A DNA stretch of 64,000 nucleotides from Echinarachnius parma (lineage: Eukaryota; Echinodermata; Echinoidea; Clypeasteroida; Echinarachniidae), in assembly GCA_037951105.1 (NCBI GenBank), contig JBAMJV010008256.1, forward strand, positions 124,001 through 188,000, given 5' to 3'. The notes beneath the pieces are model-generated. The model did no database searches, was not told the origin of the DNA, and was given only the letters and a program-made list of their open reading frames with translations. This document shows positions 6,925-59,344 of the stretch, piece after piece; within the stretch, counting starts at the first letter, position 1, and every line of letters starts with the position of its first letter. The translations under genes and the position numbers were made by a program.

Positions 6925-9028
6925 ATGATGATAATGAGGTATGTTTTGTTGGCAGCATTGTTACTGCTTCTTTTCGGTCATCCATGTTTCTCACTGTCAG
7001 TTCAGTGTGATAGGAATCGTGAACTAGAGACCAATGGGACGGCTGTCAGTGTACAGTGTATTGTGGATCAATACTTGACCGATTATAGCACATTCGTATT
7101 GAAACGACCCGATGGTACAGGGATTGGATATTGCGTTTTCATGAGCTGCAATACAAGTAACTGCAATTCGTGGTGTTCCAATAGAATCGATAACACAAAC
7201 CGTTTCACAATTGAATTATGTGGATTCTTGTGTCTTTCCTTCGATATCAAAGGTCCACTGATTGAAACGGATACAGGTGAATATTACATTTCTGTAGAGC
7301 AATATCCTAAACTCCCTGCGTGGAACCTCACATATGCCACAGCTAGTAATGTAACTGACAAAACCATTACTAACGAATCTGATATCCGCTCTGTAACCTC
7401 GTGGACATCCACAGCCAGGGTTTCAAGCGGCGTCTTTGATCCCCATCCCGGAGCTACACAACAATGGGGTGACGAAAAGCTCTCCACTGTTTCTTTGACG
7501 TCAATAACTACCGATTCGTCTAAATTATCACAACAAACAATGCAGAGCCATACATCAGACGGGAGTGAAGGTAGACACACATATTATACATTAACGGCAG
7601 GCAAGGTAGTTTACATTGTAATTATCGTGACACTATCCGTGGCACTTTTTTGCAGCATCGGAGCAGCACTTTATCTTCTAGCGCGTAAACACACACAAAG
7701 GGAATCCCCGAATCGTGATGACCAGAACCTAGCTGTTGCCCTGACTCGAACCAACACAAGTGAGGCGATAGACATGGCTTCCATGACACCCCAGCTTTCG
7801 TTACAATATCCCAGTGCCGATAACAGTGCAAATGAGCCAGAATCATTTGTGTCACGGTCGATTCATCATACGGGACCAGAGTTGCCTCCAAGGACCTTCC
7901 CTGGTGCTCCTAGTAAGAATCCATCCCCGGATGACTGCGTGCCATACGAAGAGAGTGGGACCTTCTTGAGAACGACGGCCTCTACCCGTGAAAATCGCCT
8001 CGACATTGGCCAGACTAATGTTAGTGGGACTGCGTCGTCAATCGATATTGCGACACTTGGTGCTGTTGGTGGAGGCGTAGATTTGGAGAACATGTACTGC
8101 ACGGTAAATGATTGCAAACAGAACGAAAACGCCGGTTTAATGGCTAGTGGTCATACCATACCGACTCTGACAAGCAATAATATGTCGGTAGAGTGCAACA
8201 CTGCTGATGATGAAATGTTGTGCATGTTGTATGCCAAACCAGAGAGGAGAAGCAGTGTGCAGCGCCAGAAGTCCTGTGATAACTTTCCCCTGAACGTTTC
8301 CGAGGAAATGGATGATTCTGACTATGACATTCTGAAACCCAATGTTGTTAAAGATACAAGTTGCATATTGACTTGGCCAATAGTTGGTCAGCAATATTTT
8401 CTCCACCTTGCATGTTATAAAATAGCGTGAAACTGTATTCTACGGTCAAAATGCAGCTTTGTATCGCAACAAAGTGTGTTGACCTATGCGTAAATAACTA
8501 ATGATAAGTCACAATAACTACTTTAACGCTATGCTAGGAAAAATTACTCGTTTGTTGATCGGCTTTTGGCTTTCTTGTCCTGCGATGTCTGGTGGGAACC
8601 AAACTGCAGCTCTTATTGCAAACGGATACGACTATACCGCAAACACGCCAGGGATTTCAGACGTCCGCGCCCGTTCTACACTTAGCAATGAGCACGACAC
8701 TGACAACTCGCTTCTTGCTGCATCAGATCCTGGAGAGAATAGCGATGCGATGTCAGCAGGGACTGCGAACAGTCACCTCCCTTGCTATCCGGGTACCATT
8801 CCTCATCAAATAGGTGACTCCGGCAATCGCGCTGCTCTCGGCCATTCTACATGGATGCCAGCAGCGACTGGTGATGATGAGCGAGGGAGGGTTGATCTAG
8901 CAGCAAGCGGTACAGCCATGATAGTGGTTCCGGATCCCGTGGGCAGAGATCCCGGCCAACTTTACCTGGATGAGTTCTTTGACTCGTCTGACTATGCGCT
9001 TCTGAGACCGCGCATGGATCAGGAATAG
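6925..9028 (+). CDS. G1: Ig-like eight-cysteine receptor with long tyrosine-motif tail
   Basis: Unrecognised type I membrane protein, modelled as two exons, 6925-8386 and 8610-9028 (626 aa), joined by a 223-bp phase-1 intron (G|GTCAGC...CTGCAG|CT). Seen in the sequence: signal peptide 1-23; ectodomain 24-136 with cysteines at 28, 45, 70, 75, 80, 84, 99 and 103 and DTGEYY at 116-121, like the end of an Ig V-type domain; Ser/Thr-rich stalk about 138-222; membrane span about 228-252, then RK-rich stop-transfer; tail with ELPPR (319-323), Y391 in YCTV, Y436 in LYAKP and Y467 in SDYDIL. The last exon ends in YLDEFFDSSDYALL. SDYxxL fits the ITIM consensus and a YxxL sorting signal. The start is the first ATG of ATG ATG ATA ATG, directly before the hydrophobic signal. 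An immune-type or recognition receptor is inferred from architecture only. Confidence 0.75.
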
Positions 9029-10036
9029 CCTGATATGTTTGCCCCGTAATCAACCGTGAATGCATTGATACATAATGTGAAAGTATATGAAAATTTCCAG
9101 TAATCGCCCGGACATTCAGCCATGTCTTTCCCAGAGCAAAGGCGTTATCATATGAACATGCAGGAACAGGGGACCAGGTTACGAGTTATCAAACAACGGC
9201 TTGATGAAGCCAACCATGTACAAAGCTAATGTTTGGTAATCAGTTAGGACATACTGATACAGTCCATTTCATTTGATACTAGATTGTAAACAAATGAAAA
9301 GTTCAGACGTATTGTTTATTACATGTTTACAAATTGAAGTAGGAATATCAAACGTTTTTGTTTGCACGCTTAGTATACGCTTCGATAAATAATACTTTTA
9401 TCAACAAAATTAAACAAAGACAATCGGCTTAATTCATGAGAACAATAACCTTAAATATCCAGTTTGCTATACCGGTACTTTTACTACACATCCACACAAG
9501 CATTACAAATGTTACTTGAGATGATTCCATTTATCATTTTGAAAGAGCCTTTTGGCTCAGTTGTATAAACCACATATCTTGCCTCCCAGTAGTCTCATGT
9601 TCAATTCCCGCCGAAACCCAGTCATATTTTTTTTATTAATTTTAACTTTTTAATTTTTTTTATTTTGGCATGGTCAGATACCGTCTGTTTGAAGTAGTAA
9701 CATAACAAAATATCAATATACAAACTGTGCATTAGTATATCGCGTATGGCACTGACAAACTTATAATGTTTATAATTATTGTATGCAATAATGTTGAATA
9801 CGTTCAGTCTACTAGTAGGAATGAATAGTTATTATGCCAATTTCAATAAATACTAAACTAATCGTGGTATGATTTTGTCAATTTAGAGAGTCCCTATCCA
9901 GTGGAATAAATCAGAGGTAAGTTGCTATTATGGAAAGCATACCGTTTCATTTGATATGGTCCACCCTGTATACATTGAACTTTATGAACTTAGACTTAGA
10001 CTTATCAAATTACGATTGACATTTAAGTTATGTTGC
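9029..10036. other. 3' flank of G1
   Basis: No gene. The sequence is homologous along its length to the 3' flank of G2 (about 22140-22920): shared blocks include the post-stop region near 9100-9230 and TAATTATTGTATGCAATA near 9770. The duplicated unit therefore includes the flanks. It contains one tRNA-like remnant. Confidence 0.55.
9552..9622 (+). tRNA. tRNA-derived remnant
   Basis: TGGCTCAGTTGTATAAACC and, further on, TGTTCAATTCCCG resemble decayed A and B boxes at tRNA-like spacing. Stems do not pair well and no anticodon can be called. Aligned with the tRNA-like sequence at 4071-4143, it looks like a decayed relative on the opposite strand. Confidence 0.3.
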
Positions 10037-10055
10037 AAATAGCACATGCAGTAGA

Positions 10056-11285
10056 TTGTCGATTGGTTTAGTAGGTACATGTGTTTATAATAATCAATTT
10101 GTTCGTACAATGCATATTGAGTACAATAGATTTTCTATAGATGATCAGTTATTTTTTAATACATTTTTAATGATGATAAGAGGTGAGACAATATCATATT
10201 CAAGTATGAAAAGAAAACGGTGTATGAAAAATGAAACTAAATTAGAAAAAGAAATTAGTGATTTAGAAAATAAGATTATTTATGTTTTAGATAATAAAGA
10301 TATTATTGAAGAATTGGAAGATAAAAAAAATAGTTTGGAAGATTTAAGAAAACAAAAAGTCGATGACGCAATTCTTCGTTCAAAGTTACAATGGATGGAG
10401 TTTGGTGAAAAACCCTCAAAGTTCTTTTTGAACTTTGAACAAAATCGTATTAATAGACAAATTAAAACACTGATTGATGATCAAGGTAATACAATTCAAA
10501 ATCCAAATGTTTCATTTGAAGTACATCGTTTTTACTCTAAATTATATAAGCATAAACCTGTATCCGACTTTGATTGGGATCTTTTTCAATCAAGAAACAT
10601 CCCGAAATTGAATGTGCAGATGAAAGATTCTTTAGAAGGTCCTTTGGTAATTGACGAGGTTTTTCAAGTTATTACAAATATGAAAACTAATAAATCCCCA
10701 GGAATGGATGGTTTTACAGTTGAATTTTTAAAGTTTTTTGGGGGCAGTATAAAGTATTTTTTACTTCGATCATTGAATTATGCATATTTTAATGGTCATA
10801 TGACTGAAGCGCATAAAATGGGAGTGATTACATTAATACCAAAAGGAAATAAAGACAGAAAAGTGTTATCAAACTGGAGACCTATTTCTTTATTAAATGT
10901 TATATATAAAATAGCTTCATCTTGTATTGCAAACCGGATTAAACAAATATTACCTTTTGTGATTAATGAAAGTCAAAAGGGTTTCATGTCTGGACGATTT
11001 ATTGGGGAAAATATACGTCTTTTGTTTGATTTGATGTTATACACGGATTTAAATGATATTCCTGGACTTTTGTTGATAATAGATTTTGAAAAAGCCTTCG
11101 ACTCAATATCACACGACTTTATTTTTCAGGCTCTGGACTTTTTAAATGTTGGTGATTCCATAAAATCATGGATTAAACTTTTTCATGAGAATGCATCGTC
11201 ATGCGCTATGGTCAATGGTCATATGACAAACAGATTTAATATAGAAAGAGGATGTTGTCAAGGTGACCCTCTGTCTCCTTATTAG
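10056..11285 (+). pseudogene. Tx1/L1-like reverse transcriptase fragment
   Basis: An open frame of 409 codons that opens at a TTG; the first ATG is at codon 19. A lysine/glutamate-rich coiled segment (about 50-110) precedes GEKPSKFFLNFE, the classic pre-RT block of L1-type elements. RT motifs follow: SPGMDGFT, TLIPKGNKD, NWRPISLLNVIYK, SQKGFMSGRFIGENI, LLIIDFEKAFDS and finally GCCQGDPLSP, where a stop occurs. The YADD active site that should follow within about 40 residues is missing, so the enzyme cannot work. The sequence after the stop matches a much later part of such proteins, indicating an internal deletion near 11285. Confidence 0.85.
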
Positions 11286-11299
11286 TATCAAAGTTAAAT

Positions 11300-12580
11300 T
11301 ATTTATTTTTATCATTACCGAACCCCTCTGATGAAATTATGAAATTATTACAAAAGTCATTTTTTGAATTTATTTGGAATCATAAACCTGACAAAATAAG
11401 TAGGAAACAAATGATACAACCCTATCATTTGGGAGGAGCCAAAATGATAGATATATACTCACATGTTCATTCATTGAACATATCATGGATGAGAAGATAC
11501 TTTTTTGGTAATATAGATTCTTTTATTGATAATTTAATGCATACATTTATGCCCAAAAATTGTTAATTGAACCCTACTTTTGGTGATGTTCACTTTTTAA
11601 GATTGTCAATAGGTGCAACTAACCCGTTTTGGAAAAATGTTTTTTTGGCTTATAGTATTTTACAGTCTAAAAGTTGTCGCGATATATCTTGTCAGCCTCT
11701 ATGGTTTAATAGTCATATTCAGGTGAATAACGTGTGTGTATTTTAAAGGTCTTGGTACGAAAAGGGTATAATATGTATTAATGATTTGTTAGATGAAGAT
11801 GGAACTTTTTTGTCACTCAATGAATTTAAATTGAAATATCAAATTACAGTTAATTTTTTGCAATACTTTGGCCTATGTGAAGCTATTAAATCTGGTTTCA
11901 ATAACCGTTGTGGTATTTTTGTGAAAATGGAACAGCCTTTAAGATTAGATTTAATTTCCCTTATTTGTCAATTTCGAAAAGGATGCTCGCATATATATGC
12001 TTTATTATTACAACAAAAAAGGGAAGAATGTAAAAGCTATACAAAATGGAAAAGGTTTTTTAATATTGATGAATCCATATGGCAGAAGTATTGTGCTCTT
12101 GCATTTAATTGTTCTATTGATGTTAATTTACGTTGATTTCAATTTACAATATTACATAGAATTTTGTTTACAAACGACATATTGTTAAAATTGAACATGG
12201 TTGAAACTGAATTATGTTCCTTTTGTAATGCTCATACTGAAACAATTACTCATTTATTTTGTGATTGTCAATTTGTTAAAATTATATGGGCAAAACTAGA
12301 AAGATGGATTAACATAAGTGCTGGTTGTAACATACATTTTACAAATGAAAATATATTGTTTGGATTAAGAGGTTTAAATAATAGAGCAATAAACTGTTTA
12401 TTGTTCGTTAGTAAGCAAATAATATTTCGAAGTAAACTAGTGAATAAAATACCTGTATTTTCTCAGTTTAAATCAGCTTCAATTTCATATTATAAAAATG
12501 AAAAATATATATTTAGTTTGAAAGGTCATGGTAAATACTTTGATAAAAAAATGGTTTTCCTTGAGAAGTATGTTTTCTGA
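11300..12580 (+). pseudogene. Tx1/L1-like ORF2 C-terminal region, broken
   Basis: Several short frames (11339-11566, 11786-12136, 12164-12580) read in order as the C-terminal domain of an L1/Tx1 ORF2: FFEFIWNHKPDKISRK, GGAKMIDIYSHVHSLNISWM, then a cysteine-histidine motif (LCSFCNAHTETITHLFCDC) near the end. At least two frame breaks and internal stops separate them. This motif is typical of the C-terminal zinc-like region of L1-clade proteins. Confidence 0.75.
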
Positions 12581-15113: not shown

Positions 15114-16095
15114 ATGACACATGCAGTCAGTGTCGTGTATGCAACAATAGTAGTGTTTCTTGCCATTCAAACATGTCGTTCAGTGTTTTTCCAGTGTGAG
15201 AGAAGAAATGATCTGGAAACGAATCAGAACATTATCCACGTGCGCTGCATCGCCAAACAATACTTGAGAGAACACGACCAAATCAAATTGTATCGATCTA
15301 ATGATGAAGCGATTGGGTATTGTTATACCGGATTTTGCAGGCCAACCTTGGATCATTGCTACATAGGGTGTAAGACTGATGAAGTTCATAAAGATCATTA
15401 ATTGATCCGTGTGGACTAAAATGTGTTTGCTTCAGCATTAGACAGCCACTTATGTCAACAGATTACGGTGAATACTACATTTTTGTAAATTCATCTGATA
15501 AAAGTCTTGCTTTAAACCTAACCACAACGCTAACTACAACAACGCCGACCTATAACCGATCTACCGCCCCTGTAACATCAAATATAAAGTCCCCATGTCA
15601 GCAACAAACATGCACAATTCATCCATCAGTGGATTCAGCCTACAATGGAGTCAAACACAGCTACAATGAAACTAGTGTACACAATGTAGGTGTGAAAGTC
15701 ATTATCCTAACTCCATCTTTAGTACTCCTTTGTAGCATCGGATCAGGACTCTATATTCTAGCTCGAAAACTCACCCAAAGGAAAAGACTGAACCACGACC
15801 AACAAAGTATCATAGAAACCCTATCACGACCAAATACGATAGAAACGATAGATATGACTTCCCTGACATTGCAACATCAAGTAACACCTTTTACAAGTAT
15901 ATTTGCCAATCCGAACACCGCCAGTCCGTTGACCCGTCATCATCAGATAAATGACCAGGCACCGGAGTTACCGAATGAAGCGAGCGAGTTTAATTTCAAC
16001 ACCTTATCCACTACTGACATACATTGCTCTCTGATGGGCCAAGACAATTGCCAAGGGACTTCAAATATAATTGATATCGCGACACGTGGTGTTGC

Positions 16096-16594
16096 CAGGG
16101 GCGTAGACAAGGGGGGGGGGATGAGGGGGATGCATCCCCCCACCTCTCAAGGTGGGGGGGGGGGGGGGGATGACGTGTACAATCATCCCCCCCCCCCAGG
16201 TTTTAGGGAAGGATATATTTTTTTCTGTATGTATCTGTATACGAGTGGGAAAGAAAACATTAGTTGTATGAGCTAAGACTTGTTAATTCTAACGTTAACA
16301 AAGTAATTTATACATCCATTTTCAATTTTTGCTGCGCGCTTCGCGCGCGAACAGATTATCTCAGTTTGTTGTGTAACTTACGTATGGTCTTGGGTGAGTA
16401 TTTTTTTTCTGTATACCGGGCCACGTAGTTCCAGTGTAGGCTGCCATTGTTCTGGCTATTTGTGTGACGTGCACCAAATTGCACCATTTCAAGTATATTA
16501 TATAAATGCAAAATCTTCTCCGTGGGAGGGGGATACCACCTCCCAAACCCTCCCTATTTGGCTCTGACCCAGCCCTCGGTAGCTTCGCCCCTCG
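16096..16594. mobile_element. Short inverted-repeat element with G/C runs, inside G2
   Basis: The left end CAGGGGCGTAGAC and right end, read in reverse, GAGGGGCGAAGCT are imperfect inverted repeats. The interior has long G and C runs (16110-16200), a GCGCGCTTCGCGCGC palindrome near 16335, and no coding capacity. It sits where G2 is interrupted. The host sequence in intact copies reads GGAGGCGTAGATTTG here, so the left boundary is uncertain by several bases. Confidence 0.5.
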
Positions 16595-17027: not shown

Positions 17028-19484
17028 CTATACAATATTTAAATTCAACTTCAGTGCCCTTTTAAAAGACATAAGGGAAGGGCTATTTATAATATACTGT
17101 GGGAGTTTATTCCAATCACGAGCTGTGTTAACATAAAATGAATTCATATAATAATCTGTTCTAGCAAAAGGTACGTTTAATTTCAATAAATGGTCATTTC
17201 TTCCAATCCTAGATGCATATGTAAATTTGTGTGTATAGTTTACCAGCATCAAATTATTTTGTAATTTATAACAAGCAACCAATCTATAGTACAATCTTCT
17301 TTTTTCTAAGGTACATAATCCCATTTGATTTAATAAATGTTCATATGAGGTTTCCCAGTCACTACACATCATCCTAACGCAACGCTTTTGAATACGTTCA
17401 AGTGTAATTCTATGACTTTCACAATGTGGGTCCCAAGCAATACAACAATATTCTAAGCGGGATCTTATAATAGCCTCATACAATTGCTTTAAAATATGTG
17501 GGGGACAATTAACAAATGATCTTCGTAACACACCTATAAGCTTATTACAAACTTTATATAATTCCTGACAATGAAATTTCCAATTCAGAGTATCATTTAT
17601 AACAATGCCAAGATATTTTTCAGTGTGCGTTATATCTAGTTCATATCCATTCAATTTATAATTAAAATCTATTGTTTTATTCTTACGAGACATCTTCATA
17701 ACTTTACATTTCGAAACATTAAAATTTAACAACCATATTTTACTCCAATTACTAAGTTCATCTAAATCTTTCTGAAGTAAACTGCAATCTTCTACACACT
17801 TAATTTTGTTATATACAATACAATCATCTGCATACAAACGAATAACAGATTTTATATTGTCAGATAAATCATTAATATAACAAAAGAAAAGAATTGGGCC
17901 TAATATAGTCCCCTGAGGGACACCAGACGTAACATGGATCCAGTCAGAGTATTCTCCATTTAAAACAACACGTTGTGTGCGATTCTTCAAAAAATTCATA
18001 ATCCATTGTAAATTTCGTGTTAAAACTCCACATGTCTTGAGTTTATTACATAACAAATAATGAGGGACAGAATCGAATGCTCTCGAAAAATCAAGGAAAG
18101 CAATGTGTATATCTGCGCCAGAATCTAAAAAGTTCGCCCAATCATGAATAGCTTCAATTAATTGAGTTTCGCATGATCGCTTTTCGCGAAATCCATGCTG
18201 ATTATCATCGAGTATATCATTCAGCGAAAAGTGATCGACAAGTCGTTTACGCACAATTCTTTCTAATGTCTTACATACAATAGATGTTAACGAAATAGGA
18301 CGGTAGTTAGCGGGGTCCTCTTTTTCTCCCTTTTTATGAAGCGGACACACGTTCGCTGTGCGCCAGTCAACCGGTAAATCGCCGCATGAAAGAGACAAAT
18401 TAAACAATTTACAAAGAGATGGGGCTAACTGTTCCGCCGCTTCTTTCAGTATGCGTGGGGCTATTTCATCTGGACCTTGTGCTTTACTAGAATCAATTTC
18501 TTTTAACAATTTATACACTTCTACTTCTGTACATTGAATATCAGACATAGGCGGAAAATCACAGTGTGTATCATCATTATCAAATGACTCATCACTAGTT
18601 TGTTCATTATCTATTCTAAAAGCAGATTCAAATTGTTTATTCAAAAGTGTTGCTTTCAATTTATCATCTGTTACTATATTATCATTAACTCTTAAACATG
18701 AAATATGTTTAGGTTCTTTCTTTTTCAATTTTACAAAAGTCCAAAATGCTTTAGAATTGTTTTGCACATCTTTACAAACAACATTATTTAAGTACTCAAT
18801 ATAACTCGTTTTTATTTTCTTTTTAACTTTACGCCGCAAACGTTTATATTTTTTCCAATAACCTTTACTTTTCGACTTTTTTGCACGTTTAAATAATATA
18901 TTTCGTTTTCTTATAAGTTTCTTAACATGTTTATCTACCCAAGGTACACGTACTTTATCATCAATGTTGCCCGTTGGTACATTTTCATTCACAATAGTTA
19001 ATACAGTCTGCTTCCATGATTGCCATGAGTGTTCAATGTCATTATCAATAATTAAATTACATAGAGATGCATTATCTAAATCTGTTCGTAATTGCTCATA
19101 ATTACCCTTTGAATAAAAATAAACCTTTCTTTTGGTCACATTCCTGTGTACTTTTAAATCATACAAGAAAACAATGGCTTCATGATCACTTACACCAGGA
19201 ACAACATTAATACTGCGCATATGAGATGGGTTTGTTGTAAAAATTAAGTCAAGTGTATTACTTGTGCTGTCTGTAATCCGTGTCGGTTCAGACACATGTT
19301 GATAAAGAAAATTATTATCAATAATGTCTAAAATGGTTCTAGTAATTTCTGAATTATCTGACTTTACTACATAACCATCATTCCATTTAACACTCGGTAA
19401 ATTAAAATCACCTGCTAAAATAATCTCACGGCATGTTTTATTAAATTGAGACACTAAAAACAAAGATTTTCGAAGTTCATTCAT
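17028..19484 (-). CDS. CR1-like endonuclease-reverse transcriptase (downstream of the in-frame stop)
   Basis: This 818-codon open frame covers the second half of the endonuclease (LAGDFNLPSVKWND, VSDHEAIVF) and a complete RT: SKAQGPDEIAP, CPLHKKGEKEDPANYRPISL, NQHGFREKRSCETQL, AFLDFSRAFDSVP, SGVPQGTILGP and LYADD (17824-17835). A C-terminal region with WDPHCESHRITLERIQKRCVR and ARDWNKLP follows, as in CR1/Rex-type proteins. The first ATG is at 19484 but the natural protein begins upstream, since four codons separate it from the TGA that ends the upstream frame. All visible RT motifs are intact, so the copy is fairly young, although 5' truncation and the stop make it inactive. Confidence 0.85.
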   Translation of the reverse strand: MNELRKSLFLVSQFNKTCREIILAGDFNLPSVKWNDGYVVKSDNSEITRTILDIIDNNFLYQHVSEPTRITDSTSNTLDLIFTTNPSHMRSINVVPGVSDHEAIVFLYDLKVHRNVTKRKVYFYSKGNYEQLRTDLDNASLCNLIIDNDIEHSWQSWKQTVLTIVNENVPTGNIDDKVRVPWVDKHVKKLIRKRNILFKRAKKSKSKGYWKKYKRLRRKVKKKIKTSYIEYLNNVVCKDVQNNSKAFWTFVKLKKKEPKHISCLRVNDNIVTDDKLKATLLNKQFESAFRIDNEQTSDESFDNDDTHCDFPPMSDIQCTEVEVYKLLKEIDSSKAQGPDEIAPRILKEAAEQLAPSLCKLFNLSLSCGDLPVDWRTANVCPLHKKGEKEDPANYRPISLTSIVCKTLERIVRKRLVDHFSLNDILDDNQHGFREKRSCETQLIEAIHDWANFLDSGADIHIAFLDFSRAFDSVPHYLLCNKLKTCGVLTRNLQWIMNFLKNRTQRVVLNGEYSDWIHVTSGVPQGTILGPILFFCYINDLSDNIKSVIRLYADDCIVYNKIKCVEDCSLLQKDLDELSNWSKIWLLNFNVSKCKVMKMSRKNKTIDFNYKLNGYELDITHTEKYLGIVINDTLNWKFHCQELYKVCNKLIGVLRRSFVNCPPHILKQLYEAIIRSRLEYCCIAWDPHCESHRITLERIQKRCVRMMCSDWETSYEHLLNQMGLCTLEKRRLYYRLVACYKLQNNLMLVNYTHKFTYASRIGRNDHLLKLNVPFARTDYYMNSFYVNTARDWNKLPQYIINSPSLMSFKRALKLNLNIV

Positions 19485-19496
19485 AATCTCTACACT

Positions 19497-21065
19497 TCAT
19501 AATCTATAAAATACACCCAAATACATTGACTTCATATTCTTGCCTTTTCGAAGTCTATAAAATACACCCAAATACATTGACTTCATATTCTTGCCTTTTC
19601 GAAGTAATTCCACCCATACTATTTCACAGTCTGATTCCAAGTCTGTTCTCCTTATAACATTAAGGTAATTTTTACATGCAATCAATATTCCACCAACGTG
19701 TCTCTTTCTATCTTTTCTGAAAGTTATATATGATGATGGAAAGATTTCACAAGACTTGATATTTTCATCTAAATGAGTTTCTGTTACAAAAATTACATCT
19801 GGGTCTTCAAATTCAATTATAGTATGTATTTCATTAATTTTATTTACTATACTGCATGTATTGAGAGAAATACACTTAAGGCTACACAGTTTTTGCCTTA
19901 GTCTTTTATTGTTATCACAATCTGTGGCGGTCTCTTCTTTGCCGATTTGCCAAAATTGACAAAACTTTTCTTTATGTCCTAGATTTTGACATTTTCTACA
20001 TTGTAATTGTATGGCGTGTCTGCAGGATTGGGCTCGATGATTCGGCTCGCCGCATTTTTCACAGCCAATATAATAGGATCGGATTGGCGAATGCGGCTGT
20101 GTTGGCGTTGGACGTGGTCGTGGTGGTGGCGGTTGTGGTCGTGGGGCTCGCAGTACGGATGCGTATGTCGTGTTATGCGGAATTGATGGATAGTAGACCT
20201 CTTGTGGGGGAGGGGCCCACAATGGAGGGAACGTACTCGGCATATATGTTGACGGAGCATATGTATGACGACCAGGTGGTATATGTGTCTGATGACTGGG
20301 TGGGGCGTGCACATATTGATAGCGACCGAGTGGGGCACACACCTGTTGCTGATAACTGGTTTGAGCATGCATTTGTTGCTGATGACTGGGCGGGGCTTGT
20401 TGATGTTGTTGGTGACTGGGCTGGGCTTGCTGATGTTGCTGATGACTGGGCGGGGCTTGCTGATGTTGCTGATGACTGGGCGGAGCTTGTTGATGTTGCT
20501 GATGACTGGGCGGGGCTTGCTGATGTTGCTGATGACTGGGCGGAGCTTGCTGATGTTGCTGATGAGTGGGCGGGGCTTGCTGATGCTGCTGATGACTGGA
20601 TGGGGCTTGCTGATGCTGCTGATGACTGGATGGGGCTTGCTGATGCTGCTGATGACTGGATGGGGCATGCTGGTAACTGGATGGGGCATGCACCCGCTGT
20701 TGATGACTGGGTGGGGCATGCGCCTGTTGCTGCGCCTGTTGCTGGCGACGGGGTGGTGCATACAGTTGTTGCTGGTTACCGGGATGTACCTGCACCTGTG
20801 ACTGGCGTTGGGGTGGGGCGTGTGCATGCATCTGGCGGGCTGTAGCAGGATCGACGGTCCCAGGGGGTGGCGGCTGGGCAGGAGCCGACTGGGGGCGATG
20901 CCCCTGTGGTATTGCACTCCCCGGGGGTGTAGGCTGATTGTAAAATCTTTGTTTTTGTTCATCCGCATCTTGACGCAACAGTCTCACTTCCATCGCCAAG
21001 TTGTCAAGTCGTTCATTTATACATTTACACTTCATGCAAATACATTCAACTTCGCTGCACTTCAT
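19497..21065 (-). pseudogene. CR1-like ORF1 (zinc knuckles, Gln/His/Pro repeats) fused to endonuclease start
   Basis: The segment begins with a cysteine cluster (CSEVECICMKCKC) and continues with a Pro/Gln/His-rich region of ten APPSHQQHQQ-type decapeptides. Two CCHC knuckles follow (CEKCGEPNHRAQSC and CRKCQNLGHKEKFC), then directly the start of an AP-type endonuclease (LNTCSIVNKINEI, DVIFVTETHLDENI). A tandem duplication of about 51 bp (19503-19606) repeats RKGKNMKSMYLGVFYRL just before the TGA stop. Without this stop the frame runs on into the RT. The ATG at 21065 is internal: the same frame is open to about 21400 and encodes an acidic, Asn/Ser-rich stretch. CCHC knuckles in retrotransposon ORF1 proteins bind element RNA. 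Confidence 0.8.
20370..20690. repeat. 30-bp minisatellite inside the retrotransposon ORF1
   Basis: About ten head-to-tail 30-bp units (core GCTGATGACTGGGCGGGGCT) encode APPSHQQHQQ on the - strand. Units differ by single bases and keep the frame. Adjacent partial units continue to about 20750. Confidence 0.9.
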
Positions 21066-33500: not shown

Positions 33501-33548
33501 CAGTGGCGGATCCAGGGGGGGGGGGGGGTTAGGGGGTTTAAACCCCTC

Positions 33549-33580
<32 letters not shown>

Positions 33581-41056: not shown

Positions 41057-41139
41057 TACTACGATAATAAGGGTCTAAGGTAATGCTGCAACTAAAGACA
41101 ATGTTTGTATAGTGTTTAACCTAATTTAGAAACACACAG

Positions 41140-49981: not shown

Positions 49982-52078
49982 TTATTCCTGATTCACGCGC
50001 GGGCCTAGAAGCGCATAGTCAGATGATTCAAAGAAGTCGTCTAGGTAAAGCTGGCCCGAATCCCTCCCCAAGGGTTCTTGGGGCACTATCGCCCTTGCCG
50101 CCAGGTCGAAACTACCTTGCTCATCATGATCACGAGTCCCTTGTGAACGCATTGTCATGAATGTAGTCTGCCTGAGGTCAGAAGGACTACTCGAATCACT
50201 TGTTGGACCGGGGATATCACCCGGATAGCAACGGAGGTGACTGCATTCATTACCGGCAGACATCGCTTCGCTATTTTCTCCAGGATCGGATGCGATACGA
50301 CGCGAGTCATCGGTGTCTTTGTCATCCTTGAGATCAGAAGGAGCGCGGATGTGAAGAAACCCTGGTGACCTTGTCGTCGCGTCGTATCCTTCTGCGATGA
50401 GAGCTGCTGCATGGTCTCCATCCGACATCGTAGGAAAACAGTGTCAACAGCCGGTCAAAAAGCGAGTCAAGTTTTCTACCATAACTTTTACAATTGAATT
50501 TGCTATATTTCCTTAATTTTCGACACATATGTAAACAAAGTTTGTGGCGATACGAAGCTGCACTTTGATTGACAATTTCAAACTAAACAGAATGCTATTA
50601 TACACTATGTTAAGACAATATTGCTGACCAACTATTGACCATAGCACATTGCTAACTTTTTCTTTTCCGAAGTTTTGTCTAAGAACGTCAAAGTCAGAAT
50701 CATCAATATTCGCATACATGTTGGAGGACACATTATTGATGGACTTCTGGTATTGCACCCTCCTTCTATTTTCTGGTTTGGCATACAACATACTAAGCAT
50801 CTCATCATCAGATGTATTGAAGTCTACCGAAAGATCCTCGATGGTTGGAGTTGGTATGTTCTGACCACTAGCCACCAGACTGGTGACTTCATTCCGTTTG
50901 CAATCGTCAACCGTGCAGTACATGTTCTCATTCTGTACCTCTCCGCCGCTAGCACCAAGTGTCGCAATACAATTTACTGTGGAAGTCTCTTGACCATTGT
51001 CTTGGTCAATTCGAGAACGATTTACACGTGAGTTTGAAACTGCGTTAAAACCGCTCTCCTCGTAAGGCGTGCACTCATCCATCGGCGACTGCACCCTGTT
51101 AAGGTCACTATAACCGGTCCTTGGAGGTAGCTCCGGTGCCTGACGATGAAGTGAAGGATTACCAATCCCTGGGAGGGCATTGATACTTGCAAGAGATGTA
51201 AGTTGAGGCTGCGATGACAGGGATGCCATATCAAACGCGTCAATTGTGTTCGATCGTGACAGGACACCTGACATGTTTTGAAGATCACGGTTAAGTCTTT
51301 TAATTCGTGTGCGTTTTCGCGCAAAAACATACAATCCTGTTCCCATGGTACAAATTAGTGCCACAGATAACATTGGAATAATGACTTTGAAAGCAATCTG
51401 GTATAAACTCATTCCATTGTTGAGATATTTCCCTTCAATACTAGTCGATGAATGCACCGTACATGCTCCTTGGGGGCATTGGGACTGTTTTTCCGATGAC
51501 ACAGTAACAGAAGGTTGCATTCCGTCTCTAATCGGTTCTATGGTTCTAGAATCAAGGAAAGTGCTTGAAAGTTTTACTGTTGGTACAGAAGAGGAATCAG
51601 ATGATGGGGGAAAGGGTTTACGAGTCGACGTTTCTGCATTTAGTGGATTTTGTGTTGAAGGCTTAGTTAGGTTCATAGCAAGAACTTTATCAGAAGAATT
51701 AACTGAATATATATAGTATTCACCGTAATCAGTGTAAAGTACTGGATTTGTAATGCTGAAGAAAACACAGTTCAGTCCACACGCTTCAATAAAAAAATGA
51801 CCGTCAAGTTCTCTTGCAGTCTGACATCGCAGAAAACATTTACCTCCTATCAAGCAATCCGTGTGATCACAATGCCCAATTGCCTCGTCATTAAATCGGT
51901 ACAATTTGATATTTTCACCTACATTCAGGTGACGGTCGGCGTTGCAGCGAACACTGATAATGGTCCGGTTCGTTTCTTTCTCGTTGTGTCTCTCACACTG
52001 AAATGACACTGAGAGACATGGCTGAACTACAAGAAGCAGTGACACTATTGCAAAGACAATACTGACTAGGCATTTCAT
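49982..52078 (-). CDS. G7: eight-cysteine receptor, long tail, one tyrosine replaced by Phe
   Basis: Exon 1 is 52078-50629 and exon 2 is 50403-49982 (623 aa), joined by a 225-bp phase-1 intron (TTG|GTCAGC...GCAG|CT). Seen: signal peptide (VSLLLVVQPCLSVS); cysteines at 28, 45, 70, 75, 81, 85, 100 and 104; YTDYGEYY at 115-122; a stalk; membrane span about 227-252; and RKRTRIKR. The tail has APELPPR, MYCTV and LYAKP. The SDYxxL site reads SDFDVL, so this phosphorylatable tyrosine is lost. Exon 2 ends in YLDDFFESSDYALL. Its first ~195 codons and its upstream DNA are almost identical to G8 and G9, whereas the rest differs. Start chosen at the only ATG before the signal peptide. Confidence 0.75.
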
Positions 52079-53247
52079 CCTTCCTGCTTGATTTGTTTAA
52101 ATCCTAATGTTTCAAAAGTGAATTGCAAATAAGTAAGTCCTGAATCATGTTAATGGGAAAGAAATTGTCAAGTTGCAGACGCTATTTGGGGCTGACTTTT
52201 GCGGATGAACACTGCCGAAAAATGCAAAACAGTATAATGTACGGTGTGTTATAGTCAGAGAATAATGACTTCTGTGTCTCTTTAGTTCTCGAACCTTCTT
52301 GTATTCAAAATTCATGGCAATTCCTTTCTATTCTGTCCCATTTCACACGGCAAAATTGATGTGTTTTTATTTTTGGATTGTACTTGGTACCACTTTGAAT
52401 GAAATCACTCATTACTTGAAACATGGGACTATTGTTTATTGGTTTCCACTTCAACAGTGTTTTGTTACTCTTCGAGTGGTTTGGTTTCATAGCTCATTAG
52501 TTACAAAATTGCTGATGTATGTCATGTAAGTAAATTGTAAGAACCTATAATCGTCCAAGGGAAATGTATAGAACTCAATTGTTAACTGTTTAAACATTAT
52601 ATCATGCAAGGCAAGTGCAGTTGGATACAAGATGGAAATAGTAGCATTGTCCAAATCCACAAATCGTACCTAGAAATCTAATAGTTTTCTCATACATTGT
52701 TATATTTGTGTTATCTATAGAAGCACGGAGCAGTTTTGTTTTCGAATTTGCCTTTCGTAACAAGATATTTACGATTGAAGTGTTCGAATTTTAGCAAAAG
52801 TATCAACTGAAAAGGAACACGTGTGTTCAGTGTTAATGCAATGAGTTGGCGAAAATTACTTTGTATTGTATTTCCTTCCCAAGATGTAAATTGGAAAGGC
52901 TGGAAAGTCAATTAAAACACAGTACATGTATATGAAATTGAATGGAACATATAAGATGTAAAATTAAAAGAGCAATTAGATAAGTCAAACTGTAATAATG
53001 AGTAGAAGACTAGAAGATTCAATGCTCTAGCCGAGCTGACCTTGCCTATTTAGTGACTACCTGTGTCGTATACACATCCAGCCTCTCCTGCATTCTATCT
53101 CTCTTAGATTTTAGGTTGTCCAAGATGTGAATGAGAAAGGCTGGAATTTAATTAAGTTGAATTGAATTTATTCGGCAATAACACTACTAACACAGCCGGG
53201 ACCTCTGATAAGCAGCAGCTTGTATTAATGACCAAATAGATAAGCAT

Positions 53248-54540
53248 TTACAACGAAAAGAAGAACATAATTATTACAGTTGCTTTACATATCGCAATCA
53301 TACACACGCCTATTCCCAGAGGATATAAAATAAGAGGGAGCAAGTGAACGGGGGGAAATCCAGTCAGATAATATTTAATGCTGTACATGTTCTCATTCTG
53401 TACATCTCCGCCGTTAGCACCAAGTGTTGCAACACCATGTACGGTGGAAGTCCCTTGACCATTGTTTTGGCCAATTCCAGAACGATTCACACTTGAGTTT
53501 AACATTGCGTTTAACCCGCTCTTCTCATTAGGCGTGCACACATCCTTCGGCGACTGTACCCCGTGAAGGTCACTAGCCCGGGTCCTTGGAGACAGCTTCG
53601 GTGCCTGACGAAGGGAAGGATTACCAATCTCTGGGAGGGCATTGCTACTTGCAAGAGATGTTAGTCGAGGCTGCGATGACAGAGATGCCATATCTAGCGC
53701 CTCAATTGTGTTTGATCGTGACAGGGCACCTGAAATGTTTTGAAGATCTCGGTTCAGTCTTTTAATTCGTTTGCGTTTTCGCGCAAAAATATAAACTCCT
53801 GTTCCCAAGGTACAAATAAGTGCCACAGAAAATGTTGGGATAATGACTTTGAAAGCTATCTGGTATAAACTCATTCCATTGTTAAGTTGTTTACCTTCAC
53901 TGTTGGTCGATCTATGACTCGTGCATGTTTCGTCTAAGCATTGAGGATTTTCATCCGATGACACAGTAACAGAAGGTTGCATTCCGTCTCTAATCGGTTC
54001 TATGGTTCTAGAATCAAGGAAAGTGCTTGAAAGTTTTACTGTTGGTACAGAAGAGGAATCAGATGATGGGGGAAAGGGTTTACGAGTCGACGTTTCTGCA
54101 TTTAGTGGATTTTGTGTTGAAGGCTTAGTTAGGTTCATAGCAAGAACTTTATCAGAAGAATTAACTGAATATATATAGTATTCACCGTAATCAGTGTAAA
54201 GTACTGGATTTGTAATGCTGAATAAAACACAGTTCAGTCCACACGCTTCAATAAAAAAATGACCGTCAAGTTCTCTTGCAGTCTGACATCGCAGAAAACA
54301 TTTACCTCCTATCAAGCAATTCGTGTGATCACAATGCCCAATTGCCTCGTCATTAAATCGGTACAATATGATATTTTCACCTACATTCAGGTGACGGTCG
54401 GCGTTGCAGCGAACACTGATAATGGTCCGGTTCGTTTCTTTCTCGTTGTGTCTCTCACACTGAAATGACACTGAGAGACATGGCTGAACTACAAGAAGCA
54501 GTGACACTATTGCAAAGACAATACTGACTAGGCATTTCAT
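53248..54540 (-). CDS. G8: short-tail hybrid receptor
   Basis: A single open frame of 430 aa. Signal peptide 1-23; eight cysteines at 28, 45, 70, 75, 81, 85, 100 and 104; YTDYGEYY; stalk; membrane span about 227-252; RKRKRIKRL. The tail follows the family to GDVQNENMY (386), where the YCTV motif is cut. It then continues into 44 unrelated residues ending in a hydrophobic stretch with one lysine (GVCMIAICKATVIIMFFF). There is no LYAKP, SDYxxL or last exon. The juxtamembrane APKLSPR replaces the usual ELPPR. Codons 1-195 match G7, the rest matches G10, so the gene looks like a crossover product. It shares the receptor ectodomain but lacks the tyrosine motifs. Confidence 0.72.
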   Translation of the reverse strand: MKCLVSIVFAIVSLLLVVQPCLSVSFQCERHNEKETNRTIISVRCNADRHLNVGENIILYRFNDEAIGHCDHTNCLIGGKCFLRCQTARELDGHFFIEACGLNCVLFSITNPVLYTDYGEYYIYSVNSSDKVLAMNLTKPSTQNPLNAETSTRKPFPPSSDSSSVPTVKLSSTFLDSRTIEPIRDGMQPSVTVSSDENPQCLDETCTSHRSTNSEGKQLNNGMSLYQIAFKVIIPTFSVALICTLGTGVYIFARKRKRIKRLNRDLQNISGALSRSNTIEALDMASLSSQPRLTSLASSNALPEIGNPSLRQAPKLSPRTRASDLHGVQSPKDVCTPNEKSGLNAMLNSSVNRSGIGQNNGQGTSTVHGVATLGANGGDVQNENMYSIKYYLTGFPPVHLLPLILYPLGIGVCMIAICKATVIIMFFFSL

Positions 54541-55709
54541 CCTTCCTGCTTGATTTGTTTAAATCCTAATGTTTCAAAAGTGAATTGCAAATAAGTAAGT
54601 CCTGAATCATGTTAATGGGAAAGAAATTGTCAAGTTGCAGACGCTATTTGGGGCTGACTTTTGCGGATGAACACTGCCGAAAAATGCAAAACAGTATAAT
54701 GTACGGTGTGTTATAGTCAGAGAATAATGACTTCTGTGTCTCTTTAGTTCTCGAACCTTCTTGTATTCAAAATTCATGGCAATTCCTTTCTATTCTGTCC
54801 CATTTCACACGGCAAAATTGATGTGTTTTTATTTTTGGATTGTACTTGGTACCACTTTGAATGAAATCACTCATTACTTGAAACATGGGACTATTGTTTA
54901 TTGGTTTCCACTTCAACAGTGTTTTGTTACTCTTCGAGTGGTTTGGTTTCATAGCTCATTAGTTACAAAATTGCTGATGTATGTCATGTAAGTAAATTGT
55001 AAGAACCTATAATCGTCCAAGGGAAATGTATAGAACTCAATTGTTAACTGTTTAAACATTATATCATGCAAGGCAAGTGCAGTTGGATACAAGATGGAAA
55101 TAGTAGCATTGTCCAAATCCACAAATCGTACCTAGAAATCTAATAGTTCTCTCATACATTGTTATATTTGTGTTATCTATAGAAGCACGGAGCAGTTTTG
55201 TTTTCGAATTTGCCTTTCGTAACAAGATATTTACGATTGAAGTGTTCGAATTTTAGCAAAAGTATCAACTGAAAAGGAACACGTGTGTTCAGTGTTAATG
55301 CAATGAGTTGGCGAAAATTACTTTGTATTGTATTTCCTTCCCAAGATGTAAATTGGAAAGGCTGGAAAGTCAATTAAAACACAGTACATGTATATGAAAT
55401 TGAATGGAACATATAAGATGTAAAATTAAAAGAGCAATTAGATAAGTCAAACTGTAATAATGAGTAGAAGACTAGAAGATTCAATGCTCTAGCCGAGCTG
55501 ACCTTGCCTATTTAGTGACTACCTGTGTCGTATACACATCCAGCCTCTCCTGCATTCTATCTCTCTTAGATTTTAGGTTGTCCAAGATGTGAATGAGAAA
55601 GGCTGGAATTTAATTAAGTTGAATTGAATTTATTCGGCAATAACACTACTAACACAGCCGGGACCTCTGATAAGCAGCAGCTTGTATTAATGACCAAATA
55701 GATAAGCAT

Positions 55710-57002
55710 TTACAACGAAAAGAAGAACATAATTATTACAGTTGCTTTACATATCGCAATCATACACACGCCTATTCCCAGAGGATATAAAATAAGAGGG
55801 AGCAAGTGAACGGGGGGAAATCCAGTCAGATAATATTTAATGCTGTACATGTTCTCATTCTGTACATCTCCGCCGTTAGCACCAAGTGTTGCAACACCAT
55901 GTACGGTGGAAGTCCCTTGACCATTGTTTTGGCCAATTCCAGAACGATTCACACTTGAGTTTAACATTGCGTTTAACCCGCTCTTCTCATTAGGCGTGCA
56001 CACATCCTTCGGCGACTGTACCCCGTGAAGGTCACTAGCCCGGGTCCTTGGAGGCAGCTTCGGTGCCTGACGAAGGGAAGGATTACCAATCTCTGGGAGG
56101 GCATTGCTACTTGCAAGAGATGTTAGTCGAGGCTGCGATGACAGAGATGCCATATCTAGCGCCTCAATTGTGTTTGATCGTGACAGGGCACCTGAAATGT
56201 TTTGAAGATCTCGGTTCAGTCTTTTAATTCGTTTGCGTTTTCGCGCAAAAATATAAACTCCTGTTCCCAAGGTACAAATAAGTGCCACAGAAAATGTTGG
56301 GATAATGACTTTGAAAGCTATCTGGTATAAACTCATTCCATTGTTAAGTTGTTTACCTTCACTGTTGGTCGATCTATGACTCGTGCATGTTTCGTCTAAG
56401 CATTGAGGATTTTCATCCGATGACACAGTAACAGAAGGTTGCATTCCGTCTCTAATCGGTTCTATGGTTCTAGAATCAAGGAAAGTGCTTGAAAGTTTTA
56501 CTGTTGGTACAGAAGAGGAATCAGATGATGGGGGAAAGGGTTTACGAGTCGACGTTTCTGCATTTAGTGGATTTTGTGTTGAAGGCTTAGTTAGGTTCAT
56601 AGCAAGAACTTTATCAGAAGAATTAACTGAATATATATAGTATTCACCGTAATCAGTGTAAAGTACTGGATTTGTAATGCTGAAGAAAACACAGTTCAGT
56701 CCACACGCTTCAATAAAAAAATGACCGTCAAGTTCTCTTGCAGTCTGACATCGCAGAAAACATTTACCTCCTATCAAGCAATTCGTGTGATCACAATGCC
56801 CAATTGCCTCGTCATTAAATCGGTACAATATGATATTTTCACCTACATTCAGGTGACGGTCGGCGTTGCAGCGAACACTGATAATGGTCCGGTTCGTTTC
56901 TTTCTCGTTGTGTCTCTCACACTGAAATGACACTGAGAGACATGGCTGAACTACAAGAAGCAGTGACACTATTGCAAAGACAATACTGACTAGGCATTTC
57001 AT
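55710..57002 (-). CDS. G9: short-tail hybrid receptor, near-duplicate of G8
   Basis: 430 aa, differing from G8 at only two residues that I can see: CVFFS instead of CVLFS near 106, and KLPPR instead of KLSPR in the tail. Same domain order, same crossover point and same 44-residue replaced C-terminus. The extreme similarity means very recent duplication, ongoing gene conversion, or an assembly duplication. Confidence 0.72.
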   Translation of the reverse strand: MKCLVSIVFAIVSLLLVVQPCLSVSFQCERHNEKETNRTIISVRCNADRHLNVGENIILYRFNDEAIGHCDHTNCLIGGKCFLRCQTARELDGHFFIEACGLNCVFFSITNPVLYTDYGEYYIYSVNSSDKVLAMNLTKPSTQNPLNAETSTRKPFPPSSDSSSVPTVKLSSTFLDSRTIEPIRDGMQPSVTVSSDENPQCLDETCTSHRSTNSEGKQLNNGMSLYQIAFKVIIPTFSVALICTLGTGVYIFARKRKRIKRLNRDLQNISGALSRSNTIEALDMASLSSQPRLTSLASSNALPEIGNPSLRQAPKLPPRTRASDLHGVQSPKDVCTPNEKSGLNAMLNSSVNRSGIGQNNGQGTSTVHGVATLGANGGDVQNENMYSIKYYLTGFPPVHLLPLILYPLGIGVCMIAICKATVIIMFFFSL

Positions 57003-58059
57003 CCTTCCTGCTTGATTTGTTTAAATCCTAATGTTTCAAAAGTGAATTGCAAATAAGTAAGTCCTGAATCATGTTAATGGGAAAGAAATTGTCAAGTTGC
57101 AGACGCTATTTGGGGCTGACTTTTGCGGATGAACACTGCCGAAAAATGCAAAACAGTATAATGTACGGTGTGTTATAGTCAGAGAATAATGACTTCTGTG
57201 TCTCTTTAGTTCTCGAACCTTCTTGTATTCAAAATTCATGACAATTTCTTATATTCTGACCCATTTCAAACGGCATAATTGATGTGGTTTTATTTTTCAT
57301 AGCTCATTAGTTACAAAATTGCTGATGTATGTCATGTAAGTAAATTGTAAGAACCTATAATCGTCCAAGGGAAATGTATAGAACTCAATTGTTAACTGTT
57401 TAAACATTATATCATGCAAGGCAAGTGCAGTTGGATACAAGATGGAAATAGTAGCATTGTCCAAATCCACAAATCGTACCTAGAAATCTAATAGGTCTCT
57501 CATACATTGTTATATTTGTGTTATCTATAGAAGCACGGAGCAATTTTGTTTTCGAATTTGCCTTTCGTAACAAGATATTTACGATTGAAGTGTTCGAATT
57601 TTAGCAAAAGTATCAACTGAAAAGGAACACGTGTGTTCAGTGTTAATGCAATGAGTTGGCGAAAATTACTTTGTATTGTATTTCCTTCCCAAGATGTAAA
57701 TTGGAAAGACTGGAAAGTCAATTAAAACACAGTACATGTATATGAAATTGAATGGAACATATAAGATGTAAAATCAAAAGAGAGCAATTAGATAAGTCAA
57801 ACTGTAATAATGAGTAGAAGACTAGAAGATTCAATGCTCTAGCCGAGCTGACCTTGCCTATTTAGTGACTACCTGTGTCGTATACACATCCAGCCTCTCC
57901 TGCATTCTATCTCTCTTAGATTTTAGGTTGTCCAAGATGTGAATGAGAAAGGCTGGAATTTCATTAAGTTGAATTGAATTTATTCGGCAATAACACTACA
58001 AACACAGCCGGGACCTCTGATAAGCAGCAACTTGTATTGATGACCAAATAGATAAGCAT

Positions 58060-59344
58060 TTACAACGAAAAGAAGAACATAATTATTACAGTTGCTTTAC
58101 ATATCGCAATCATACACACGCCTATTCCCAGAGGATATAAAATAGGAGGGAGCAAGTGAACGGGGGGAAATCCAGTCAGATAATATTTAATGCTGTACAT
58201 GTTCTCATTCTGTACATCTCCGCCGTTAGCACCAAGTGTTGCAACACCATGTACGGTGGAAGTCCCTTGACCATTGTTTTGGCCAATTCCAGAACGATTC
58301 ACACTTGAGTTTAACATTGCGTTTAACCCGCTCTTCTCATTAGGCGTGCACACATCCATCGGCGACTGTACCCCGTGAAGGTCACTAGCCCGGGTCCTTG
58401 GAGGCAGCTTCGGTGCCTGACGAAGGGAAGGATTACCAATCTCTGGGAGGGCATTGCTACTTGCAAGAGATGTTAGTCGAGGCTGCGATGACAGAGATGC
58501 CATATCTAGCGCCTCAATTGTGTTTGATCGTGACAGGGCACCTGAAATGTTTTGAAGATCTCGGTTCAGTCTTTTAATTCGTTTGCGTTTTCGCGCAAAA
58601 ATATAAACTCCTGTTCCCAAGGTACAAATAAGTGCCACAGAAAATGTTGGGATAATGACTTTGAAAGCTATCTGGTATAAACTCATTCCATTGTTAAGTT
58701 GTTTACCTTCACTGTTGGTCGATCTATGACTCGTGCATGTTTTGTCTAAGCATTGAGGATTTTCATCCGATGACACAGAAACAGAAGGTCGCATTCCGTC
58801 TAATCGGTTCTGTGGTTCTAGAATCAAGGAAAGTGCTTGAAAGTTTTACCGACACGGTGGGTGCCGATGAGGAATGAGATGGGGGAATGCGTGTGCCAGT
58901 CGAAGCTTCTGCATTTAGTGGACTTTTTGTTGACGGCTTAGTTAGGTTCAAAGCAAGAACTTCCTCAGAAGAATTGACTGAAATATAGTATTCACCGTAA
59001 TCAGTGTCAAGCACAAAGTTTATAATGCTAAAGGAGACACAGTTCCGTCCACACGTTTCGACAAGCAAATGATCTTTAAGTTCTTTTACAGTCTGAAATC
59101 GTAGTAAACAAATACCTCTTACGCATTCTGTGTAATCACAATGCCCAATCACCTCGCCATTAAAACGATACAAGAGTACATTTTCACCTACTCTCAGGTG
59201 TCGTTCGGCGTTGCAGCGAACACTAATCATGGTTCTGTTCGTTTCTTGCTCGTTGTGTGTCTCATACCTGAATTACACTGAGAGACATGGCTGAACAAGA
59301 AGCAGTGACATTACTGTAAATACAATACTGACCAGGCATTCCAT
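58060..59344 (-). pseudogene. G10: short-tail receptor pseudogene, donor-like 3' half of G8/G9
   Basis: The ATG at 59344 opens a signal peptide (SLLLVQPCLSV), but a TAA at 59275-59273 stops it just before the first ectodomain cysteine. The eight-cysteine domain then reads from about 59230 with one key position changed (FQTVKEL replaces CQTARE), so a conserved cysteine is missing. A 2-base deletion near 58800 (CCGTCTAATC versus CCGTCTCTAATC in G7) shifts the frame within the stalk. The 3' half (58060-58778) is nearly identical to G8 and G9, including the truncated tail. The 5' half is clearly diverged from them. Non-functional as it stands. Confidence 0.8.

Follow-up and report, generated by a model that had tools for sequence, protein, structure and literature searches.

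The 64,000-nucleotide stretch of the echinoid Echinarachnius parma analysed here (contig JBAMJV010008256.1 of assembly GCA_037951105.1, positions 124,001 to 188,000; hereafter the window) carries ten homologous copies of a receptor gene between positions 6925 and 59344, six on the forward and four on the reverse strand. By sequence comparison these copies belong to a very large family of type I membrane receptors that lie in clusters in this echinoderm's genome. We propose, with about even confidence, that they serve as recognition receptors with a constant, SH2- and SH3-recruiting, probably inhibitory-type tail. We infer an immune or allorecognition role. An initial annotation of the window had described ten clustered receptors sharing a signal peptide, an eight-cysteine ectodomain, a stalk, a membrane span and a tail with PxxP, YCTV, LYAKP, SDYxxL and a final SDYxLL, and had recognised no known family in them.

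The ten copies lie where that annotation placed them, but every listed feature is present only in copies A (6925–9028), D (30597–32658) and E (36851–38858). Copies are lettered A–F (forward) and G–J (reverse); boundaries were set by tblastn, and the assignments rest on lists of open reading frames (ORFs), motif scans and six-frame translations. Copy G (52078–49982, reverse strand) is intact, and its fourth motif reads SDFDVL, with Phe replacing the Tyr of SDYxxL. In copies H and I everything from the signal peptide through the ectodomain to the membrane span is retained; past ENMY the tail diverges, and YCTV, LYAKP and SDYxxL are absent from both tails in the motif scan and translations of the window; at the same tail site copy I has PKLPPR and copy H PKLSPR. 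Copy F runs only from the membrane span onward, its ectodomain not being found. In copy B the reading frame breaks within the ectodomain and again in exon 2, and a retrotransposon splits the tail halves; copy C has several frame breaks; and copy J has a stop past the signal peptide, one frame break and the same tail truncation as H and I. The final SDYxLL, present in seven copies (A–G), stands on a separate downstream exon, so the receptor protein is not a single ORF. When the stop-to-stop ORFs of 40 residues or more in the window were searched by profile, no eleventh copy appeared. The receptor features are as follows.

6925–8386, forward strand: copy A exon 1, intact, with signal peptide, 8-Cys ectodomain, stalk, membrane span and tail; ends at the predicted phase-1 donor
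7876–7893, 8095–8106, 8227–8241, 8317–8334, forward strand: copy A tail motifs PELPPR, YCTV, LYAKP and SDYDIL, respectively
8610–9028, forward strand: copy A exon 2, predicted to start at the tandem NAG acceptor; SDYALL at 8987–9004
15114–16102, forward strand: copy B 5' part, broken, with a frame break near 15392–15398; repeat sequence interrupts the tail
17028–21401, reverse strand: retrotransposon-like element between the copy B halves, its type judged by eye from ORF translations
21404–22055, forward strand: copy B 3' part; LYAKP 21473–21487, DESDYD 21557–21574, SDYDLL 22032–22049; frame break in exon 2
25512–27267, forward strand: copy C, broken; final SDYELL 27235–27252
30597–32052, forward strand: copy D exon 1, intact, ending at the predicted donor; PELPPR 31533–31550, YCTV 31755–31766, LYAKP 31908–31922, DSDYDDL from 31980
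32239–32658, forward strand: copy D exon 2 ORF (ORF bounds; the start is not the splice site); SDYELL 32614–32631
36851–38300, forward strand: copy E exon 1, intact, with predicted donor GC at 38301; PELPPR 37781–37798, YCTV 38003–38014, LYAKP 38156–38170, DDSDYDDL from 38225
38436–38858, forward strand: copy E exon 2 ORF (ORF bounds); SDYELL 38814–38831
42928–44384, forward strand: copy F, with membrane span, tail and exon 2; LYAKP 43603–43617, SDYELL 44349–44366
50629–52078, reverse strand: copy G exon 1, intact; PELPPR 51119–51136, YCTV 50909–50920, LYAKP 50774–50788, DDSDFD (Phe for Tyr) 50687–50704
49982–50443, reverse strand: copy G exon 2 ORF; SDYALL 50006–50023
53248–54540, reverse strand: copy H, with ectodomain, membrane span and short tail (PKLSPR)
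55710–57002, reverse strand: copy I, like H, with PKLPPR
58060–59344, reverse strand: copy J, with a stop past the signal peptide, a frame break near 58800 and a tail truncated like those of H and I

The H and I units are 2,462 bp each and 99.88% identical. Within 52196–57119 (reverse strand), 1.28 kb from the 5' end of a receptor gene are in each unit fused to another stretch, which recurs upstream at about 59.5–60.6 kb, 77–91% alike; judged from sequence, the pair may reflect a very recent local tandem duplication or rearrangement, or a duplication in the assembly. The element inside copy B (17028–21401) comprises, by eye, a proline/glutamine-rich repeat ORF and an ORF resembling reverse transcriptase, with a perfect 51-bp tandem duplication at their junction (19503–19605).

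Relatives elsewhere in the genome allowed the gene layout to be compared across 30 full-length exon-1 proteins, comprising the four intact window copies and the best matches to copies G and A; two loci that were the window again (L001, L010), repeats (L040–L059) and members covering fewer than 440 profile columns were dropped. Exon 1, of about 1.45 kb, encodes an N-terminal hydrophobic segment taken as signal peptide, followed by a single cysteine-rich domain (about 115 residues), a stalk rich in Ser and Thr, a single membrane span and the larger part of the tail (197–227 residues, to which the second exon adds). The four intact window copies all have two hydrophobic stretches, N-terminal and at about 210–254, and a stalk Ser/Thr fraction of 0.29–0.38. 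A downstream ORF on the same strand with the final SDYxLL was found for all 30 members. The junction between the exons is best fitted by a predicted phase-1 intron, 223 bp long in copy A: the frame is open and in phase up to the predicted donor in 29 of 30 members, an AG is present in 29 of 30 at the acceptor, a tandem NAG in frame, and the donor is GT in 19, GC in 10 and GG in one. The GC donors occupy the identical place in all ten, as in copy E at 38301; GC–AG introns usually make up about 1%, and so high a share is unusual. A donor directly 3' of SDYDVLR was rejected, no GT there being kept across all members, as was an ATG start for exon 2, which by eye is missing from D, E and other members.

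The assembly to which the window belongs comprises 1.2 Gb in 14,790 contigs. Its mitochondrial contig with COX1 uses, by context, AAA for Asn (in RMN[AAA]MSFW), ATA for Ile and AGA for Ser, as in the echinoderm code, and has large-subunit rRNA, COX1, tRNA-Arg, ND4L and COX2 in that order (ND4L and COX2 identified by eye from translations), the arrangement of sea urchins and sea cucumbers; together with a bindin gene, these traits indicate an echinoderm, most likely a sea urchin. A DNA search with copy A gave 107 candidate places, of which the best 40 were scored. Protein searches yielded 92 stretches from the best 89 of 793 candidates with copy G, and 89 places from the best 89 of 868 candidates with copy A, the weakest still with an expectation value (E) of 8e-80. 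Internal stops, with frame breaks uncounted, interrupt 9 of the 92 and 10 of the 89 stretches. The union of both protein searches covers at least 123 places on 38 contigs, the densest among the places listed (contigs are numbered with the prefix C) being C1486 with 22, C660 with 17 and C8243 with 14. Exact codon patterns, counted by pattern and not inspected one by one, occur genome-wide at 159 places for FFDSSDY (exon 2), 149 for TDYGEYY and 77 for VDC[NK]TxDD; the reversed patterns gave none in each case, which for the exon-2 motif excludes chance. Because the TDYGEYY places (100 of the 149 listed) include contigs beyond the 38, the figure of 123 is a lower bound. The clustered family first noticed in the window thus extends through the genome, with at least 123 mapped places and about 150 by motif patterns, and we estimate its size as on the order of 100–200 genes. 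Viral contigs, scanned once with copy G as query, yielded no relative. In C8243 and in C1486, the places listed form a long forward run of members followed by a reverse run; among the matches listed, copies A and G each have their closest relative on C1486 (88% and 79%, respectively), and the two contigs may be diverged haplotypes or a segmental duplication.

The tail of these proteins is very uniform, more so than the ectodomain. All 30 members carry P.LPPR, LYAKP and [SA][DE][YF]DxL, the last with Tyr in 29; the expression N[ED][ND][MT]YxxV matches 27, and the remaining three have LEN or FEN ahead of YCTV. The strict immunoreceptor tyrosine-based inhibitory motif (ITIM), [SIVL]xYxx[IVL], occurs in the exon-1 tail of 27 of 30, and S[DE]YxLL in the exon-2 ORF of 28, both misses being loci cut at their end. 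With tail and exon-2 ORF taken together (these ORFs include some residues upstream of the predicted splice site), two strict ITIMs are found in 20 members, three in five and one in five; the two SxYxxL motifs sit on different exons. The inhibitory-type motifs that the annotation named were thus borne out as ITIM-like SxYxxL. By its sequence pattern the tail carries conserved ITIMs, a pattern that does not by itself settle inhibition against activation.

Conservation follows the same division. Mean column identity is 0.61 in the tail, 0.50 in the ectodomain and 0.40 in the stalk, and NTYCTV, LYAKP and SDYDVL stand at the 97th, 97th and 94th percentiles of the tail. The pooled ratio of non-synonymous to synonymous substitution rates (dN/dS; 261 of 435 pairs, those of moderate synonymous distance) is below 1 in all seven regions: 0.71 in the stalk, 0.52 in the signal, 0.42 in the ectodomain, 0.40 in each of two upstream tail regions, 0.36 in the membrane span and, lowest, 0.32 from YCTV to SDYDVLR. 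These values indicate purifying selection across the 30 members. Among 42 close pairs compared in 20-column windows, the ratio of the corresponding proportions of differences (pN/pS) is 0.13 at LYAKP and reaches 1.13 in a stretch before PELPP. In 360 of 435 pairs the tail shows fewer synonymous differences than the ectodomain, which gene conversion of the 3' half would fit. Within the set, only four of 30 members have their nearest relative on their own contig, so exchange between clusters or haplotypes, beyond local duplication, may have shaped the family.

For the ectodomain, the comparison suggests a divergent V-set-like immunoglobulin fold without the F-strand cysteine and with others. Signatures occur in V-set order (GTxISVxC, IxLYR, FSI, TDxGEYY), with [DEN]xGx[YF] in all 30 members and the V-set-like WYR, bearing the C-strand Trp, in three. 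Aligned by hhalign with 15 V-sets of the same genome, the family profile reached a probability of 5.3%, an E of 0.0074 and a score of 20.16, above all 200 column shuffles. A profile of 27 ectodomains (the 30 less three near-duplicates) gave 44 weak matches to solved sequences (E 0.012–1.5), of which 43 are named as antibody heavy chains. The eight cysteines reported for the ectodomain hold for the four intact window copies, but the count ranges from six to nine in the genome set (eight in 15 members, nine in six, seven in three, six in six). By eye, L024, L031, L035 and L036 are without one neighbouring cysteine pair and L016 and L019 without another, as if whole disulphides had been lost; L015, L017 and L029, which are without just one cysteine of the second pair, are exceptions. 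The annotation's failure to recognise the family also proved sound: no significant match was found in Pfam for the seven family members (four intact exon-1 proteins, two exon-2 ORFs and copy H) among nine window sequences searched, nor, for copy G, among sequences of solved structures.

The proposal of V-like recognition receptors with an inhibitory-type tail has to be weighed against a series of contrary results, of which those on the ectodomain come first. No Pfam family, V-set included, matched the 27 ectodomains significantly; V-set (PF07686) was not among the 11 families reached at E up to 10, where weak matches above about 0.1 are mostly filtered, and the sole immunoglobulin-like family among them, Ig_ADGRF3, matched one ectodomain at E 0.16. 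The antibody sequences matched are largely near-alike, and in five alignments inspected the better-scoring stretch pairs wrong strands, leaving 3.0–5.6 bits for the stretch in immunoglobulin register. The F-strand cysteine, and with it the canonical B–F disulphide, is absent from all 30 members, and the hhalign margin is small (best shuffle 19.81, reversed profile 9.94) at its low probability. None of the 150 V-set places scored in the same genome (the best of 983 candidates, on 104 contigs) lies on the 38 family contigs. That the ectodomain is instead an independent small disulphide-rich fold is a serious possibility, somewhat short of even: the lack of a Pfam match, the six to nine cysteines with none on the F strand and the marginal hhalign score favour it, and the B-, C-, E- and F-strand signatures in V-set order speak for the immunoglobulin fold.

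In the tail, the hemi-immunoreceptor tyrosine-based activation motif (hemITAM) in the form [DE]xxYxxL occurs in tail or exon-2 ORF of 29 of 30 members and equally allows activation; the immunoreceptor tyrosine-based switch motif is found in one member, and a tandem activation motif (ITAM; two YxxL/I spaced by 6–12) matches in only two when tail and exon-2 ORF are searched. Within the window, intact copy G has Phe at the place of one motif tyrosine. Such receptors might be activating, phagocytic or engulfment receptors, with SxYxxL as a hemITAM-like docking site for Syk-family kinases, and with YAKP and PxLPPR recruiting adaptors that drive uptake by coelomocytes. The near-universal [DE]xxYxxL, together with YxxP and PxxPx[RK] in 30 of 30 each, would agree with this. 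The final SSDYxLL, however, lacks an acidic residue at −3 and is a better fit to an ITIM, and strict ITIM matches number two in 20 members and three in five, multiple ITIMs being the commoner inhibitory layout. The hemITAM-bearing receptors reported in the Botryllus allorecognition locus (PMC12065747) count in favour of activation. On balance we consider activating receptors rather unlikely.

Further contrary points concern selection. The 30-member set is biased towards intact, similar genes and is not a random sample; at a dN/dS of 0.42 its ectodomains show no family-wide positive selection; unlike LYAKP, the YCTV and SDYDVL windows each have a pN/pS of 0.77 in the close pairs; and the conserved PYEES tyrosine window stands only at the 79th percentile of the tail. 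The annotation's interpretation stands as regards a clustered, expanded type I receptor family, and is qualified by purifying selection (0.32–0.71) and the ambiguous polarity of the tail. Non-immune surface receptors for gamete recognition, adhesion or tissue patterning, expanded in this lineage, would accord with the prevailing purifying selection, with SH3- and SH2-binding tails, which are usual for adhesion receptors too, and with data in which nothing links the family to immune cells. This alternative is unlikely in view of the more than 100 related places, some of them broken, the very recent duplication in tandem and the variable number of cysteines, all typical of recognition loci.

Some haplotype redundancy in the count is likely. 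Three pairs among the 30 members are 98–99% identical in protein on different contigs (C10715/C660, C1486/C11965, C11852/C3917), and pieces of the housekeeping domain PF04998, which three RNA polymerase genes are expected to carry, lie on five contigs, one of which may be foreign or hold a retrocopy; some haplotypes are therefore probably separate in the assembly. That uncollapsed haplotypes and segmental copies make up most of the count, with a functional family of only some tens of genes, is improbable, since pieces of bindin (the gene matched by Pfam at 126 bits) are confined to a single contig, 24 of the 30 members are less than 95% identical to their nearest relative within the set, and the 159 exon-2 motifs, if halved, would still number about 80.

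If the preferred reading of recognition receptors with an inhibitory-type tail holds, ligand binding would trigger phosphorylation of the tail by Src-family kinases; SHP-type phosphatases would then dock at the SxYxxL sites, YAKP would recruit Crk/Nck-type adaptors and PxLPPR an SH3 protein, these SH2 and SH3 partners being assigned from general motif knowledge. Many differing outer domains would thereby feed one shared signalling output, most likely in coelomocytes recognising microbes or self, and cut-tail copies such as H and I could be decoys or decaying genes. More tentatively, the family could constitute an undescribed germline-encoded recognition system of echinoderms: some 100–200 receptors, each with its own single V-like domain, would share one conserved tail of inhibitory type, made up of an SH3 site, YxxV, YAKP and two ITIMs. 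On coelomocytes they would act as an invertebrate checkpoint or missing-self system, the cut-tail copies serving as natural decoys. The open literature, which excludes most subscription journals, yielded no description of the family; it may be annotated elsewhere as uncharacterised proteins. Should the role prove immune, echinoderms would be added to cnidarians, tunicates and vertebrates as animals that tie ITIM-type signalling to a large repertoire of fast-duplicating ectodomains. Because the tail is so uniform, a handful of phosphopeptides would then suffice for a direct test of inhibitory signalling in a sea urchin.

Elsewhere in the window, retrotransposon pieces lie at 243–2984 (reverse strand) and at 10020–12580 (forward strand). 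Pfam shows an endonuclease domain accompanied by a reverse transcriptase match below its cut-off and, in the neighbouring ORF, a baculovirus-FP-like C-terminal domain; a reverse transcriptase-like frame at 10020–11285 was read by eye. A tRNA match (Rfam, 51.4 bits) lies at 4071–4143 on the reverse strand. Stretches rich in C or G at about 16090–16276, 33500–33850 and 46069–46111 give Gly- or Pro-rich frames by eye; they are perhaps one repeat family, of which one member cuts the tail of copy B.

V-set domains are very frequent in the same genome, and among 15 of their loci examined, L063 on contig C9370 holds a receptor of similar design. There a single ORF encodes a V-set, a short stalk, a membrane span and a tyrosine tail (LYAMP, LYSKP, YAEI, SDYTDM); it differs in that its V-set is canonical and matched by Pfam. 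Common descent of the two tails was considered and rejected, since hhalign aligned 15 columns around LYxKP at a score of 23.00 against up to 22.86 in 60 shuffles. Among the matches listed, C9370 has seven V-set places, six of them in open frames of more than 500 residues, and it may hold a second undescribed receptor family.

Further afield, the family resembles in layout the vertebrate inhibitory receptor clusters KIR, CHIR, LILR, CEACAM and NITR (for the last, PMC2442602). Shared traits are a variable ectodomain, an ITIM-type tail, clustering and members without tail motifs. The likeness is one of layout, with no sign of common descent, and the E. parma ectodomain is unmatched by immunoglobulin models. 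The cnidarian Alr family of Hydractinia, an allorecognition family of 41 genes with V-set and I-set domains (PMC11999971) and with ITIM/ITAM-kind tyrosine motifs reported for genes of the alr locus (PMC12065747), is likewise a large clustered invertebrate family with tyrosine motifs; by description, the E. parma family differs in its single cysteine-rich domain, nearly intron-less main exon, fixed order of tail motifs and phylum. The fester co-receptors (FcoR) of Botryllus combine V-type immunoglobulin, sushi and two C2-type immunoglobulin domains (PMC12065747) and are also type I proteins with long tails bearing ITIM, hemITAM or core YxxI/L/V motifs, whereas the E. parma receptors have one unclassified domain and many more copies. 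On paper the family resembles the inhibitory receptor clusters of other animals. In scale of expansion and in clustering it also resembles the expanded immune families of echinoids, TLR, NLR, SRCR, IL-17 and SpTransformer (PMC8634487). SpTransformer genes, too, have two exons. If its role is immune, the family would add to that set a large group of membrane receptors that differ from it in carrying tyrosine motifs, with no SRCR, LRR, TIR or NACHT match by Pfam in the seven window sequences or the 27 ectodomains.

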